Shown here: positions 21,151-27,116 of the stretch, in pieces
Position numbering within the stretch: position 1 is the first letter of the stretch
Layout: each line of letters opens with the position of its first letter
The notes under the pieces: model-generated
What the model was told of the DNA's origin: nothing
Seen by the model: the letters and a program-made list of their open reading frames with translations, nothing else
Databases searched by the model: none
Made by a program: the position numbers and the translations under genes
NCBI RefSeq assembly: GCF_000828085.3
Contig: NZ_JXCA02000027.1
Span: 431,040 to 491,005, forward strand
Direction of reading: 5' to 3'
Origin: Scytonema tolypothrichoides VB-61278
GTDB lineage: Bacteria; Cyanobacteriota; Cyanobacteriia; Cyanobacteriales; Nostocaceae
DNA length: 59,966 nt

Positions 21151-21684
21151 TCACCGTAACCCGCCGGAGTCGTGCGATATCTTCGGTTCAAACGCACAGT
21201 ATTGTCGAAGCAAGTGAATGGTAAACACTTGCATCAACGATTCAGCGTAAAGCTGTCCACCCATGCTAGACGTGTCAAGTTCTGTCTGAAACAGGCGGGC
21301 GATCGCTTCAATCTGTGGATCACAAGCACTGACTGTACTAAGCAACTCAACCTTGTTTGCGTCGAGTCCACCCACTTGTTGAGCTGTTCGACTCAAAAAC
21401 AGTGGGTCAATCACAAACATCAGCGACTCATCAATACTCTCCCATGCCCAAAGCCCTGTTACTTTGGCAGGACAAATCCAAAAATCTCCTTTAGCTTGAG
21501 GTTTTTCAGATTCTTGTTCACCAATGCGAGTCATTTTTTGTTGATTACCATCGCTCAACAGAAGGCAAAGAAGATGATGGGAATGCCCAGGAAATTCTAG
21601 CTCATGCGGTGCTGAGATATGACGTTCAATGGTCATGCCTGGTAGTTGCAGAGTGCAGCGTTCGGAAACCCATGTGTCCTTCAT
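21151..21684 (-). pseudogene. AraC-family regulator truncated before its DNA-binding domain
   Basis: The 177-residue product corresponds to the N-terminal ligand-sensing part of a cyanobacterial AraC-family activator: MKDTWVSERCTLQLPGMTIE, then HSHHLLCLLLSDGNQ and FWICPAKVTGLWAWE. It ends HLLRQYCAFEPKISHDSGGL, where the family normally continues into two helix-turn-helix motifs. These are absent and mobile-element sequence follows. Without the HTH it cannot act as an activator. It starts 27 bases after the EgtD-like gene, so it may once have been cotranscribed with it. Confidence 0.75.
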
Positions 21685-21711: not shown

Positions 21712-22713
21712 TTAAACCTTTTGACAAAAATAAATTCCCTCCTCTTGATTTGCAGCTTCCCAGTAATCCAATATCTTAATGTCATAACTGTTGAGTACTA
21801 CCTCAAGTGAATGAGTCGTATAACGGTATGAAAAAAATAATTGTACTTTATCTCCGTTTTTCCACTGTATCAACTGGTCATCCAATTTTAAACTCACATC
21901 TTTTTCGACTTCAAAGTCAGCATGAATCCTTTTTAAATCCTGATTTTTTTTATCGTCTTCTATAGAAAATTTAATAGTTCCATCTTCTTGATTGATTCCA
22001 GCATCCATTAAAACTGTTATTAACCAATCTTTAGTTAATTCATTATCGTATTGTGGCAGTACTTTTTGAATGCCTTGAACGTAATCGTTTCCAGGGGATA
22101 AATTTGCACTCATGAGCAATATATCTCCCGTTTGCAGAAAATTATTTAAAACAGGTAAAATTTCATCTGGATAAAAGTTGGGAATCATACCAAAAAATGT
22201 TATTATCTTTTTTTCACCTTCTTTTTTATGATTAAGATGAAGTATTAAATCGTCAGAATGAGGTAAATCACAAACAATCGGCTGCACGGATATTTTAGGG
22301 TAAGATGCCCTGACTTTTTGAGCAGCGATTAAAGAAAGAGACAAACTGACATCGACGGGATAATAAACTAATTGTCTCTCAGGACTCCAGAGATATGACA
22401 CTAAGAGATTATCTTTCGTGCCTCCACCACAACCTAATCCAATTAACTGTAAACTGAAATTGTTCTCCAGAATCTCTGCAGTTTTTTGAAAACATTTTTC
22501 ATAGGCATCGACACAATCATCACTGTTTCTCGAAGGAGAATAATGTTCATGAATCCTCAACCATTTCTGACTTTGTTTGACGCTGTCATAATGAAACTTA
22601 TGATTAATGTGTTTTGAGAAAAAGCCTGCTAAATAATCTTGATAAACTTTATCTGGAAATTGACTAGGATGTACATATACTTGTTCAAATCCCTGAGATA
22701 TGGTAGATGTCAT
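21712..22713 (-). CDS. EgtD-like SAM-dependent methyltransferase
   Basis: A 333-residue methyltransferase of the histidine-specific (EgtD-type) family. The SAM-binding part is LQLIGLGCGGGTKDNLLVSY; YYPVDVSLSLSLIAAQKV and the motif TFFGMIPNFYPDEILP (cf. GNF in EgtD) follow, then GDILLMSANLSPGND and a Tyr-Asp-Asn near the substrate site. EgtD trimethylates histidine for ergothioneine, but no egtB or other ergothioneine gene is next to it, so the substrate may differ. The start has AAGGAAA 6 bases upstream. It is transcribed away from folK and toward the AraC remnant. Confidence 0.7.
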   Translation of the reverse strand: MTSTISQGFEQVYVHPSQFPDKVYQDYLAGFFSKHINHKFHYDSVKQSQKWLRIHEHYSPSRNSDDCVDAYEKCFQKTAEILENNFSLQLIGLGCGGGTKDNLLVSYLWSPERQLVYYPVDVSLSLSLIAAQKVRASYPKISVQPIVCDLPHSDDLILHLNHKKEGEKKIITFFGMIPNFYPDEILPVLNNFLQTGDILLMSANLSPGNDYVQGIQKVLPQYDNELTKDWLITVLMDAGINQEDGTIKFSIEDDKKNQDLKRIHADFEVEKDVSLKLDDQLIQWKNGDKVQLFFSYRYTTHSLEVVLNSYDIKILDYWEAANQEEGIYFCQKV

Positions 22714-22868
22714 ATAAGTTTCCTTACCGCTGATGGCTGATGAAATAGGATAATTGAGCTTGTAGTAATGAATTCTATGGTACTTGAAACAGAGCTTTTT
22801 TACCCATCGGCTTTTTGCTGTGGGAATATCAAATAAGCCTATAATGTTAAACTATTCAAAAACTTGCA

Positions 22869-23354
22869 ATGACACAGCATTCAGTTAGTGCGATCGCTCT
22901 CGGAAGTAACCTTGGTAACTCCCAAGCCATATTAGAAGCTGCCCTAGAAAAACTGGATCAAACTCCAGATATTACAGTAAAATCACATTCATCCTGGTAT
23001 AGAACAAAACCCATAGGACCATCACAACCAGATTATCTCAATGGCTGTGCCCTATTAGAGGTGCAGTTAAGTCCTGAGAAATTATTAGAGACTCTGCTGG
23101 CAATTGAACAAGAGTTTGGTAGAGTACGTCAAGAACGTTGGGGACCAAGGACCTTAGATTTGGATGTGCTTCTGTTTGATGAGTTAATTCTAGAAACGCC
23201 TGATTTGCAAATCCCTCATCCACGGATGACAGAAAGAGCCTTTGTTTTGGTACCATTAGCTGAAATTGCTCCTGATTGGATAGAACCCGTCTCAGGGATG
23301 AGTATCTCCCAACTCGTTCAAAAGGTTGATTGTTCTGGAGTCACTCAAAACTGA
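22869..23354 (+). CDS. folK: HPPK, 6-hydroxymethyl-dihydropterin pyrophosphokinase
   Basis: FolK transfers pyrophosphate from ATP to 6-hydroxymethyl-7,8-dihydropterin, the step before dihydropteroate synthase in folate synthesis. The 161 residues contain the family signatures IALGSNLGN, SSWYRTKPIGPSQPDYLNG, the signature RWGPRTLDLDVLLFD and the HPRMTERAFVLVPL segment. It is complete. It lies on the opposite strand among a group of minus-strand genes, and its last 63 bases overlap the 3' end of the MurL-like gene. Confidence 0.95.
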   Translation: MTQHSVSAIALGSNLGNSQAILEAALEKLDQTPDITVKSHSSWYRTKPIGPSQPDYLNGCALLEVQLSPEKLLETLLAIEQEFGRVRQERWGPRTLDLDVLLFDELILETPDLQIPHPRMTERAFVLVPLAEIAPDWIEPVSGMSISQLVQKVDCSGVTQN

Positions 23355-24731
23355 ATTTAGCTTCTGTGCATGTTGCTTAGGAATATTTTTGGGAGCTGAT
23401 ATCATCAGGAGAGATTCATCAAACTCAATATTGGGGATGTGGGCAAGAACACCCAAAGGTTGATCGTTCTTGAGACGTCGTTCTTTGCATTTGGCTAATG
23501 CCATCAAAGTTTCACGCTTTTCGCCAACACACTCAAATGGTTTCTCAGTGGTTGGATCAAACAGACGTCTCCAAACTTCTTCAAGTGTGCTTAGGCTGAA
23601 TAAGTCTTTACCAACAACTTGCACAGCAAAACGGTAATCTGTTGCTGCTTCAATCAAAGCGTATGAAAAAGCACATTTGGGACATTGGCAACACCAGCGA
23701 CACGATCCTGGTGCCCACTGCGCCTCGTTACATGAGGTAAGGACATTCAGGAGACTTTTATCCCAAAGAGATAACTGGTGAACCGTAGCAATTGAGTACA
23801 CTTCTTCACAAATGCTGACATAGCGAAATGGCAAACCCTTGCGTTCCAAAAAACTGTTGAAACGTTCTATGTAAGCAGTTCCCTTAGCACTTTGATGATT
23901 GACTTCGCGTCCCTCATATGTTGCATTTGATTCATTGGAACTTTTATCATTTGCTAAGACGAGGAACCGATGACCCTGCTGTGCTGCAATTACCATCATA
24001 ATAAACAGCGCATTAGTAATTGTTGGATCGTTGCGAACTCCCTTGTAACGAAAATGTTCAGCTGGATCTTCCCTTGGATGGGTTAGTATTTCCCAAAGGC
24101 GGGTTCGATTTCGTATGTCATCAAATACTGGAAACTTTTCTTGCCAATTGTTCCCTAGTATGCCTCCGGCATGATGTAGAGTGAAGGCTTCCATAGGAAG
24201 GTTAGCTTGCTGCATCCACTCGAACCCAAAAGTACTTTCTTTACCTCCACTGACTGCAAGGAGGTAAGTATCGTTAACTGATGGTAACCAATCATTCTCT
24301 ATCTCTATGCCACTTTGAGAAAACTCAATTCGAGGCATTTTATCCCAACCCCATTTCTCTAAATAAAACTTTTGCTGGAGATACCAGTAAATGTCCTCAT
24401 TCCACCAATCTGATTCCCACGCCAGACAACTATACCAACAGACTTGTACAATTTCAGGGGTACAGATTTCACAAAGGCGATAAATTTCAGCCATTGCAAT
24501 CCCAATCAAGACAGATGGGTGGGGTTTCTCTGTATTTTTAAATTCGAGTGGAAATTCGATTTCATAAAAATGCTTCCAGTTGTCGATCAGAAATGGAAAA
24601 ATTAATTTAGAACTGTTCCACTCAGGCGCTTCAGAACAAATGACAGAACAGGTTGGGGATTCTCCTGTAGCCATGTACTGTATACGCAACTCGTGATATC
24701 GACTTTTGAATTGTTCAAAAATTGAGGACAT
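23292..24731 (-). CDS. MurL-like PP-loop ATP-dependent enzyme
   Basis: A 479-residue protein with a PP-loop in LLAVSGGKESTFGFEW (near 165), which binds ATP for adenylation. The later motifs LANDKSSNESNA, EVNHQSAKGTAYIERFNSFL, TSCNEAQW and CRWCCQCPKCAFSY have the order and spacing I expect of MurL. In Xanthomonas MurL epimerises the terminal L-glutamate of UDP-MurNAc-L-Ala-L-Glu. The four to five clustered cysteines probably bind a metal. Cyanobacteria make D-glutamate with MurI, so another substrate is plausible. No ribosome site is evident. The gene lies between the DHPS-like and EgtD-like genes, on the same strand, with folK opposed. Confidence 0.6.
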   Translation of the reverse strand: MSSIFEQFKSRYHELRIQYMATGESPTCSVICSEAPEWNSSKLIFPFLIDNWKHFYEIEFPLEFKNTEKPHPSVLIGIAMAEIYRLCEICTPEIVQVCWYSCLAWESDWWNEDIYWYLQQKFYLEKWGWDKMPRIEFSQSGIEIENDWLPSVNDTYLLAVSGGKESTFGFEWMQQANLPMEAFTLHHAGGILGNNWQEKFPVFDDIRNRTRLWEILTHPREDPAEHFRYKGVRNDPTITNALFIMMVIAAQQGHRFLVLANDKSSNESNATYEGREVNHQSAKGTAYIERFNSFLERKGLPFRYVSICEEVYSIATVHQLSLWDKSLLNVLTSCNEAQWAPGSCRWCCQCPKCAFSYALIEAATDYRFAVQVVGKDLFSLSTLEEVWRRLFDPTTEKPFECVGEKRETLMALAKCKERRLKNDQPLGVLAHIPNIEFDESLLMISAPKNIPKQHAQKLNSVLSDSRTINLLNELGDTHP

Positions 24732-24942
24732 GACTAAAAAAGAACTCAGAGCACAGTTGTCAAAACTCAGAATTAATTATAAACACAGGTTGATATCCTT
24801 ACAATTGTCTACAACTGGGTTTTCGTGATGTTACAAACCCCAGATAGCCACTCCAAAGTCGTGGCGCTACGCTTTTTAATGGGGATTTTGCTGTTGCCTG
24901 TTGCCCGTTCCCCGTTCCCCGTTCCCTCTTAATCCCAACACT

Positions 24943-25830
24943 TTAAAAGAAACTAAGAGTATCTAAAACAGCTTTAGTTTTAGGAACTTCATGAGTTCTA
25001 AAAAGGTCTGTTTTTCCTAATGCGGCAAGAACAGCGAAAAAAGGTTCAGCACTTCTGACTTCTTCACCAAAACATTCAAAAGCATGGGGTAGGGCATGGC
25101 AAACTGGAAAACCTAATTTCCTGAGTCGAAAAGTATTTAAAAACGTTCTCATTTGATAACGAATACGAAGAGAACTGTCTTGGAGATTTTTGTAATAAAA
25201 CCCTAACCCTGGATCGACAAAAATTTTTCTGATGTCATATTTAGTTGCTGTGTCTATTTCCTTGGCGAAATAATCGTACATTAAATCTGTTGGATCATCC
25301 CCAAAATCAAAATCACCAACTTCTCTAACATTTTTTCCTTGAACATAACAGATAATTACCCCTGCATCAAACTCAGAGACAGCTTGGTAAATTTCTTCAC
25401 TTTTTTCTGGTCCTGTTAAGTTAATGACATTTGCCCCAACCCGCAAACATTCTCTCGCAACTTCAGGATAATAAGTTTCAATTGAAGTCAAAATACCTTC
25501 TTGATTCAAAGCTTCAAGAACAGGCAGAATTTGACTTTGTTGTCTAACGTCTTCAACTCTCTCTGCTTTTTCCAAAGTTGACTCAGCGCCAATATCTACG
25601 ATATCAGCACCTTGAGCGTTTAACACTAATCCACGACGAATAGCTTGTTCTGAACTTAAACATACACTTTCTCTATACCAAGAATCACTAGAAAGATTAA
25701 TGACTCCTAAAATGGCTTTTTTTGAATTGAAATTGAAATTTTTATTTCCTATTGTGAACTCTTCTACTTTTGCATTTAAGGCGTCTTTATAGTGTTCATG
25801 AATTGCGTATAAGTCTTCAAGAGTAAGCAT
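24943..25830 (-). CDS. Dihydropteroate-synthase-like pterin-binding protein, divergent
   Basis: A 295-residue TIM-barrel protein related to FolP. The pterin-side motifs are recognisable: ILGVINLSSDSWYR (family GxLNxTPDSF), ADIVDIGAEST, FVDPGLGF and, at the end, LFRTHEV (family RVHDV). Residues needed for pABA binding in FolP are not: the STRPG loop reads STLEK, and the SRKSF lysine segment is replaced by VCHALPHAF. The SVDT aspartate is glutamate (SIETYY). So it probably binds a pterin but is unlikely to make dihydropteroate. It is followed on the same strand by the MurL-like gene after 211 bases. Confidence 0.65.
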   Translation of the reverse strand: MLTLEDLYAIHEHYKDALNAKVEEFTIGNKNFNFNSKKAILGVINLSSDSWYRESVCLSSEQAIRRGLVLNAQGADIVDIGAESTLEKAERVEDVRQQSQILPVLEALNQEGILTSIETYYPEVARECLRVGANVINLTGPEKSEEIYQAVSEFDAGVIICYVQGKNVREVGDFDFGDDPTDLMYDYFAKEIDTATKYDIRKIFVDPGLGFYYKNLQDSSLRIRYQMRTFLNTFRLRKLGFPVCHALPHAFECFGEEVRSAEPFFAVLAALGKTDLFRTHEVPKTKAVLDTLSFF

Positions 25831-25920
25831 ATTTCAAATCCGTTAACAAAAAATAGCAATTGTCAAAGAGCAGCCTGTCTAACGAGCTGCACTCATCTAT
25901 ACTATGGCAATAGCGCGAGA

Positions 25921-26640
25921 CTACAAACTCCAGCCCCCCGAGACTTCCAATATTTGTCCTGTGATGTAATCAGCATCGGGACTGATAAAAAACCAAACAG
26001 CATTGCTTATTTCTTCCAAAGTTGCTGCGCGTTTGGCAGGTAGTTTTGGGATCATCTCCTCTACGTCAAAAGAATTCTCAGCTATTCCCGGGGATACCAC
26101 ATTGGCAGTAATGTTGTTCTTAATGATCTCCTGGGCCAAGGACTTTGTATAGATGATGACACCAGTTTTAGCAATGACATAAGCTGTATTCGTCCGACGT
26201 GCTACCACATTCTGGGCACTAGCGCAAGCAAAATTGACAATGCGCCCCCAATTGGCTGCCTTCAGATAGGGAAGTGCTGCTTGAGTAATATAGAAAGTGG
26301 TATTAAGGTTGGAATCAAGAACTTCATGCCACTCCTGTGTAGATATTTGGCTGGTGAGTTTTCCTAAATAGTTGCCCACGTTATTGACGACTACAGATAA
26401 GCCTCCCAGATTCTCGGCTGCCCGTTCTACCAAAGACTTAGCTTGATCGGGATTGGTAACATCTGCTTGGAGGGCGATCGCTTTGACTCCATGAGTCGCT
26501 GCTTCCTCACTTGCTTTACTTGCTGCTTCTCCACTGCGGTTATAGTGAAATGCGACATCAAATCCTTGAGTGGCTAGTTTGAGGGCGATCGCCCGTCCAA
26601 TTCCCCCCGATGATCCAGTCACGAGTGCTTTTTTTAGCAT
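25921..26640 (-). CDS. Short-chain dehydrogenase/reductase
   Basis: A classical SDR of 239 residues: NAD(P)-binding motif TGSSGGIGRA, NNVG in place of NNAG, an active-site serine in CASAQ, and Tyr-x-x-x-Lys in AYVIAKTG. The ANVVSPG and ISPDADYITGQILEVSGGWS segments are standard. HYNRSG after the second strand suggests NADPH. FabG-like and pteridine-reductase-like enzymes have this form; the neighbouring DHPS-like gene makes a pterin or pterin-like substrate worth considering, but that is inference. Its ATG overlaps the NUDIX stop by 7 bases (ATGCTAA), so the two are translated together. Confidence 0.8.
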   Translation of the reverse strand: MLKKALVTGSSGGIGRAIALKLATQGFDVAFHYNRSGEAASKASEEAATHGVKAIALQADVTNPDQAKSLVERAAENLGGLSVVVNNVGNYLGKLTSQISTQEWHEVLDSNLNTTFYITQAALPYLKAANWGRIVNFACASAQNVVARRTNTAYVIAKTGVIIYTKSLAQEIIKNNITANVVSPGIAENSFDVEEMIPKLPAKRAATLEEISNAVWFFISPDADYITGQILEVSGGWSL

Positions 26641-27116
26641 TGTTCTTGAACTTTATTGTGATATAGTTTGTCGATTTGCTTTTGTACATAGTCCGAAATC
26701 AATACGCGGGTGTAGGTATTGAGGGGATACTCTGTTGCCCGTTGGGGAGTCACCCATGCCCATTCCTCAATTTCTTCGTTGGGTGTGATGGTTTCGCCTT
26801 TCGAGAATGCATAGTAGTTAACCATAATGAAATGGGCTTCCCGCACAAACTGTGAATCTAGCACCGCTTCTTGTAGCAACCCAAAGCGTACATCTGTCAA
26901 CTCTAAACCCACTTCTTCTCGAAACTCTCTTTTGACTGCGGCTTCTAGCGTTTCGCCCCATTCCACTTTACCTCCCGGTACACCCCATGTGCCCCGCCAC
27001 TTAGTCGTTTTGACAATTAAGACTTGTCCATGAGGATTAACAGCAAGTGCCCCTACAGTCGTTAAGGGGAACTGCTTCTGCACAGATATTTGTCCAATTG
27101 GCGTTTGATTTTGCAT
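26634..27116 (-). CDS. NUDIX hydrolase
   Basis: A 160-residue NUDIX hydrolase. The NUDIX box begins GGKVEWGETLEAAVKREF and ends REEVGLEL, with all consensus acidic residues. Enzymes of this family cleave nucleoside diphosphate compounds; some cleave dihydroneopterin triphosphate in folate synthesis, and the context with an SDR, a DHPS-like protein and folK makes that possible. Start taken as ATG at 27116, with AGGT upstream; GTG one codon earlier is the alternative. It is the first gene of the minus-strand NUDIX-SDR pair. Confidence 0.85.
   Translation of the reverse strand: MQNQTPIGQISVQKQFPLTTVGALAVNPHGQVLIVKTTKWRGTWGVPGGKVEWGETLEAAVKREFREEVGLELTDVRFGLLQEAVLDSQFVREAHFIMVNYYAFSKGETITPNEEIEEWAWVTPQRATEYPLNTYTRVLISDYVQKQIDKLYHNKVQEQC

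Follow-up and report, generated by a model that had tools for sequence, protein, structure and literature searches.

Several described enzymes provide a frame for the gene cluster analyzed here. FolQ appears as a Nudix enzyme in the folate literature, part of which also gives a TGX3RXG signature as common to PTR1 and FolM (PMC1971073). In EgtD, according to one section of a published account, Asn166, Tyr206, and Ser284 hold the amine and carboxylate of the amino acid (PMC8593015). MurL depends on ATP and gives off AMP, and a passage in the report of its discoverers takes this as a sign of substrate adenylation (PMC5808125). A trimethoprim-resistant insert with a short-chain dehydrogenase is mentioned in part of another paper (PMC5112248); among the papers listed in our search of the open-licence literature, none bears on the origin of TmpR. 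We compared with these systems a locus in a 59,966-nucleotide stretch of DNA from Scytonema tolypothrichoides VB-61278, here called the window. It encodes an enzyme, which we call DHPSL, that resembles dihydropteroate synthase (DHPS), the folate enzyme on which sulfa drugs act, together with a NUDIX hydrolase, a short-chain dehydrogenase/reductase (SDR), folK (HPPK), an EgtD-like methyltransferase, and a MurL-like ATP enzyme. These genes belong to a real, recurrent cluster, and one that very probably encodes a pterin pathway. We propose that this dedicated pathway is predicted to leave folate synthesis at the stage of 6-hydroxymethyl-7,8-dihydropterin pyrophosphate (DHPP), a reading to which we assign a probability of roughly 0.6.

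To find other copies, we scanned a genome contig collection, from which the genomes nearest the window's may be missing, with an alignment of DHPSL. This gave 67 loci: 40 cyanobacterial, 26 from other bacteria, and one remote match in Clostridia (L131, 29% identity), excluded from the locus counts. Neighbors were counted by tblastn in up to 10 kb of DNA on either side of DHPSL, with many misses on short contigs. The SDR accompanies DHPSL in 39 of the 40 cyanobacterial loci, always within about 1.3 kb, while folK is found in 31 and NUDIX in 29. The other partners are less constant. A full-length EgtD-like gene is present in 18 loci and an alternative 390-residue methyltransferase, MT390, in 9, and no locus has both. 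Likewise, a long MurL-like gene (8/40, with pieces in three more) never shares a locus with a QueD-type PTPS (12/40). MT390 comes with a phosphatase, either SurE-like (five loci) or HAD (four), in 9/9 cases; a FAD oxidoreductase is present in nine loci, with pieces in two more, and a FolB-like gene in 14. The QueD call was made on one copy (TIGR03367, 99.6 bits against a cut-off of 89.25), as was that of HAD, and the MT390 and FAD protein calls on two copies each; SurE and FolB are names that we presume from the sequences. The full-gene counts leave out a 34-residue EgtD-like remnant in L091, the MurL-like pieces of L069, L090, and L096, and those of the FAD oxidoreductase in L079 and L091. 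We did count the MurL-like open reading frame (ORF) of L065, which at 395 residues is shorter than the others. The MT390 of L130 aligns in two pieces.

The core of the cluster is folK, NUDIX, SDR, and DHPSL; the EgtD-like and MurL-like genes are accessories that can give way to others. Such an exchange can be seen in Brasilonema angustatum, where, at the same chromosomal place, NUDIX-SDR-DHPSL is followed by MT390 and a HAD phosphatase in place of the MurL-like and EgtD-like genes. A preliminary description of the window had proposed a pterin-type cluster of all six genes, to be doubted if they were separated in close relatives. Its pterin core recurs in many cyanobacteria with DHPSL, SDR, NUDIX, and folK together, and these four are not separated in B. 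angustatum; the two accessory genes are, being missing from that locus. Carriers of DHPSL include Trichodesmium, Richelia, Dolichospermum, Prochloron, and Moorena. Trichodesmium (L068 and L069) has two tandem SDR-DHPSL pairs, one with each of the DHPSL subtypes described below, and the MurL-like pieces of L069 lie there as well.

The distribution of the genes was also followed in 148 genomes drawn from the same order. DHPSL orthologues (at least 52% identity) occur in 15 of them, across eight families of the draw, and were not found in the other seven drawn genomes of the window's own family. The SDR (E values up to 1e-70) is present in 16 genomes, 14 of which carry DHPSL; by coordinates, no more than about 300 bp separates the two in any of the 14 (Fisher p 1e-16 for co-occurrence). 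Only DHPSL carriers have the EgtD-like gene (7/148) or the MurL-like gene (3/148, at least 70% identity), the latter side by side with DHPSL. Unrelated distributions of DHPSL and the MurL-like gene, which the preliminary description had named as a reason to abandon a common pathway, were thus not found: they are nested, with DHPSL in 3/3 MurL-like carriers. Ten further genomes have only MurL-like relatives at 24 to 30% identity. NUDIX (E values up to 1e-40) is in 22 genomes, 10 of which carry DHPSL.

At other places, the genome of the window, 7.9 Mb in size, encodes a normal folP, next to what we take to be the gene of triose-phosphate isomerase, and also another protein that scores over the EgtD cut-off. 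DHPSL and the EgtD-like protein are therefore extra paralogues. The same genome has a Pterin_bind protein of MetH size, presumably MetH, from a 1,187-residue open frame. The window DHPSL and its counterpart in Brasilonema bromeliae share 97% identity. The genome has no DHFR_1 match, and such matches were found in only 23 of the 148 genomes of the order.

Alignment and structure prediction indicate that DHPSL is a DHPS fold in which the pterin/pyrophosphate site is kept and the p-aminobenzoate (pABA) site is replaced. The AlphaFold2 model (pLDDT 90.5) has the TIM-barrel fold of DHPS, and all 50 of the matches listed for it are DHPS or Sul proteins; Sul3 chains are among the nearest to DHPSL by sequence. 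Residues were compared in an alignment of 50 sequences from the larger DHPSL set, with L102, L093, and fragments excluded. Of the residues that bind pterin and pyrophosphate in FolP (E. coli numbering), N22, T62, D96, N115, D185, R255, and H257 are identical or conservatively replaced in 50/50, and Asn22, Thr/Ser62, Arg255, and His257 are retained in every sequence. By contrast with FolP and Sul1 to Sul3, the Lys-Ser pair of the pABA site has become Ala-Glu and Arg63 of loop 2 is lost: Lys221, Ser222, and Arg63 are kept in 0/50, whereas Lys221 and Arg63 are present both in E. coli FolP and in the window genome's own FolP. The pABA role of Lys221-Ser222 is carried over from Sul2, in which Lys213-Ser214 contacts pABA. 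The conserved Glu stands at the position of the Ser for the pABA carboxylate, which suggests that the partner carries a cationic or amine group at that point. DHPSL should act like DHPS on the pterin side, yet we do not class it as a DHPS. It reaches 112.7 bits with the DHPS model TIGR01496, under the cut-off of 162.6, and it usually accompanies a normal FolP in the same genome (22 of the 25 rows examined). In a PHROGs scan of three window proteins, DHPSL matched one family of unknown function.

Methyltransferase type follows DHPSL subtype. We built a quick tree from 63 DHPSL-set rows (clostridial L131 included) and two FolP rows, with 25 rows labelled EgtD-like and 9 MT390. L088 bears no label despite its EgtD-like gene, and in L069 the EgtD-like label was given by locus to the two tandem copies alike. 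The labels change twice on the tree, against a shuffle mean of 8.0 to 8.1, and 0/500 shuffles were as low; one of the two changes is the first Trichodesmium tandem copy, which bears its neighbor's label. At DHPSL position 220, in the same pocket loop as the replaced pair, there is His in 20/20 EgtD-linked sequences and Thr/Ser in 8/8 MT390-linked ones, and at position 191 Tyr (20/20) and Gly/Ala (8/8), respectively. Because a single clade contains all the MT390 rows, the pattern amounts essentially to one coupled switch, which is consistent with DHPSL and the methyltransferase handling the same molecule but is no proof of it.

The remaining core genes were assigned by family. The best family of the SDR is TmpR, whose cut-off (325 bits) it exceeds, which strengthens the pterin link that had been drawn from motifs. 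Unlike PTR1 and FolM, it lacks TGX3RXG, as that signature is given in part of the source cited above, and has TGSSGGIG instead; among pterin-reducing SDRs it is the TmpR model that it passes. The NUDIX protein has a Nudix box, read by eye, and matches the general NUDIX domain, with 20.5 bits against a cut-off of 103 for the NudB model NF006961; it is possibly a dihydroneopterin-triphosphate pyrophosphohydrolase or a related one. When five window proteins were scanned with PADLOC for a role in defence, only NUDIX matched (PDC-S07, 47.9 bits). The folK product is far above its cut-off (54.1 bits) and is the only HPPK match found in the window genome, so it would serve both folate and the cluster. 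One HPPK match was found in 12 of 15 genomes checked, and three (G042, G093, and G130) have more, partly fragments. Two genomes have a NUDIX-SDR pair and no DHPSL; in G104 the folK gene is on a different contig from the pair, and in G121 some 630 kb lie between them. This pair may therefore have a role of its own.

Like DHPSL, the two accessory proteins score well under the cut-offs of the equivalog models after which they are named. The EgtD-like protein belongs to the same Methyltransf_33 family as EgtD and reaches 67.6 bits against the EgtD cut-off of 290.9 (TIGR03438). We aligned 25 EgtD-like sequences with 10 cyanobacterial EgtD proteins over that cut-off, using MAFFT, and assigned columns to EgtD numbering by motif. 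The Asn166, Tyr206, and Ser284 columns are kept in 25/25. Glu282 and Met252, which govern the choice of histidine in EgtD, are not: the first column is Phe in 25/25, and the second is Met in 0/25. We predict that the protein N-methylates an amino-acid-type group that is not histidine and that carries a hydrophobic or aromatic side group. The MurL-like protein matches the MurL model over residues 130 to 419, far under its cut-off of 700 bits, and unlike MurL has close relatives in pterin clusters. It has no Pfam match and no PDB sequence match up to E 0.1, and its PP-loop reads SGGKES in six and GGGKES in two of eight aligned sequences. We predict that it adenylates a carboxylate, for epimerization or amide formation.

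The six genes lie as the preliminary description had placed them, with ORFs on the same strands (Table 1), and its motif-based family calls agree with hidden Markov model searches at the family level. Its overlap between the NUDIX stop and the SDR start is also there: plus-strand 26634-26640 reads ttagcat, i.e., ATGCTAA on the minus strand. A second overlap, of 63 bp, joins folK and the MurL-like gene tail to tail. Short repeats of the cccgttcc type lie between the MurL-like and DHPS-like genes at 24900-24930. Beside the EgtD-like gene, a 177-residue ORF (21151-21684, minus strand) matches nothing in Pfam or NCBIfam at E values up to 0.001; we take it to resemble the sensor part of an AraC-type regulator minus the DNA-binding half. 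The preliminary description knew of no pathway with this combination of genes, and we found none in the titles and abstract openings of the open-licence PubMed Central papers that our searches listed, nor any description there of the cluster or of a DHPS-like pterin gene; descriptions in other wording or venues would escape such a search.

Table 1. Genes of the cluster in the window, with coordinates counted from its first nucleotide
Gene product	Position	Strand	Match
NUDIX hydrolase	26634-27116 from ATG, or to 27119 from GTG	minus	Pfam NUDIX, 84 bits
TmpR-family SDR (dihydropteridine/dihydrofolate reductase family), predicted pterin reductase	25921-26640	minus	NF012208, 385.7 bits
DHPS-like enzyme (DHPSL), cluster marker	24943-25830	minus	Pterin_bind, 103.3 bits
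MurL-like PP-loop ATP enzyme, accessory	23292-24731	minus	NF041275, 84.4 bits
folK (HPPK)	22869-23354	plus	TIGR01498, 152 bits
EgtD-like S-adenosylmethionine methyltransferase (Methyltransf_33), accessory	21712-22713	minus	Pfam, 78.6 bits

Outside cyanobacteria, the 26 loci are mostly from Verrucomicrobia, with some from Proteobacteria, a myxococcote, and Entotheonella. An EgtD-like gene lies within 6.5 kb of DHPSL in seven of them. In L125 and L127 it is followed by a TmpR-like SDR, whose best family in L127 is TmpR at 201 bits, under the cut-off of 325; L119 has a weaker SDR match. One gammaproteobacterial contig (L095) holds DHPSL, EgtD-like, FolB-like, and NUDIX genes together. A second gene call returned the EgtD-like genes, the SDR in three loci, and genes that we take to be of the cytochrome-oxidase type and unrelated. 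The preliminary description looked to co-occurrence without folK as an anchor for support, and this is found in part: the seven loci pair DHPSL with an EgtD-like gene and have no folK.

A number of observations weigh against the proposed pathway. None of the 26 non-cyanobacterial loci has folK, and 16 have none of the eleven partner types sought; so many partnerless loci are evidence against a fixed operon outside cyanobacteria, where DHPSL may work by itself or together with genes farther off. Even in cyanobacteria, folK is missing from 9 of the 40 loci, among them L096 in 20.9 kb of DNA, with 10 kb on each side. Of the 148 drawn genomes, 12 have NUDIX and 2 have the SDR but lack DHPSL, and the Fisher p values are uncorrected for kinship. 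The match of subtype and methyltransferase rests on essentially one tree switch and not on many independent events. Finally, a normal folP is not seen in the assemblies of 3 of the 25 rows (G018, G130, and G200), so that DHPSL could serve folate synthesis there. In these three, a draft gap and a real loss are indistinguishable.

Those three rows would suit a second or back-up folate branch, in which DHPSL acts in the manner of a Sul enzyme, with the TmpR-like SDR standing in for dihydrofolate reductase. The family of the SDR, the missing DHFR_1 match in the window genome, and the nearness of Sul3 chains to DHPSL all fit such a branch. Nevertheless, we think it unlikely. The Lys-Ser pair matching the pABA contact of Sul2 is absent from 50/50 DHPSL, and on these residues we rejected the branch as a full account. 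The other 22 rows do have a normal folP, and DHFR_1 is scarce across the order with or without DHPSL. We also know of no place for the methyltransferases and the PP-loop enzyme in folate synthesis.

The loss of Lys221 and Arg63 in 50/50 can be read in another way, that DHPSL performs no pterin coupling and is a noncatalytic or regulatory pterin binder or a pterin-dependent methyl-transfer enzyme; the Pterin_bind superfamily also includes methyltransferases. This too seems improbable to us, since Asn22, Thr/Ser62, Arg255, and His257, which serve pyrophosphate, would be needless in a plain pterin binder, and clustering with HPPK in 31/40 loci points to a pyrophosphate substrate. One may also ask if these are merely housekeeping genes that came to lie near folK by chance, with no common pathway: folK is itself a housekeeping gene nearby in most cyanobacterial loci, and gene order and strand vary widely. 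Yet the set recurs across many genera despite this variation, the NUDIX-SDR pairs of G104 and G121, which lack DHPSL, stand apart from folK, and cassettes at one place differ within Brasilonema. With DHPSL and SDR together in 14 of 15 DHPSL genomes and the recurrence across loci, chance neighborhood was rejected and is very hard to credit.

The pathway branching at DHPP that we favor would run as follows, in an order of steps that we infer. NUDIX, with FolB-like and QueD-like proteins where present, would help shape the pterin supply. HPPK, judged by its family, would make DHPP, the substrate common to folate. DHPSL would then bind DHPP as DHPS does and expel pyrophosphate to give a pterin-methyl cation, which, as its residues suggest, it would join to a nucleophile other than p-aminobenzoate. 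The TmpR-type SDR, again by family, would reduce the dihydropterin ring. A methyltransferase matched to the DHPSL subtype, in the window the EgtD-like one, may decorate the partner, and the MurL-like enzyme may adenylate a carboxylate for epimerization or amide formation. The product would be a pterin conjugate that takes at least two chemical forms in different species.

In its wider form, the proposal is that cyanobacteria, Verrucomicrobia, and some Proteobacteria have repurposed a DHPS-family enzyme, which now joins dihydropterin pyrophosphate to a new partner bearing an amine, giving an undescribed tetrahydropterin conjugate, whether cofactor, photoprotectant, or signal, in at least two methylation variants; we regard the chances of this as evenly balanced. 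If it is true, the route to a second pterin end product would fork off at the DHPP of folate synthesis in cyanobacteria of ecological weight, such as Trichodesmium, Richelia, Dolichospermum, and Prochloron. A member of the DHPS family would have a new partner, and annotation would be affected, as the gene is easily called a second folP. The cluster would also offer a short list of genes with which to seek a new pterin.

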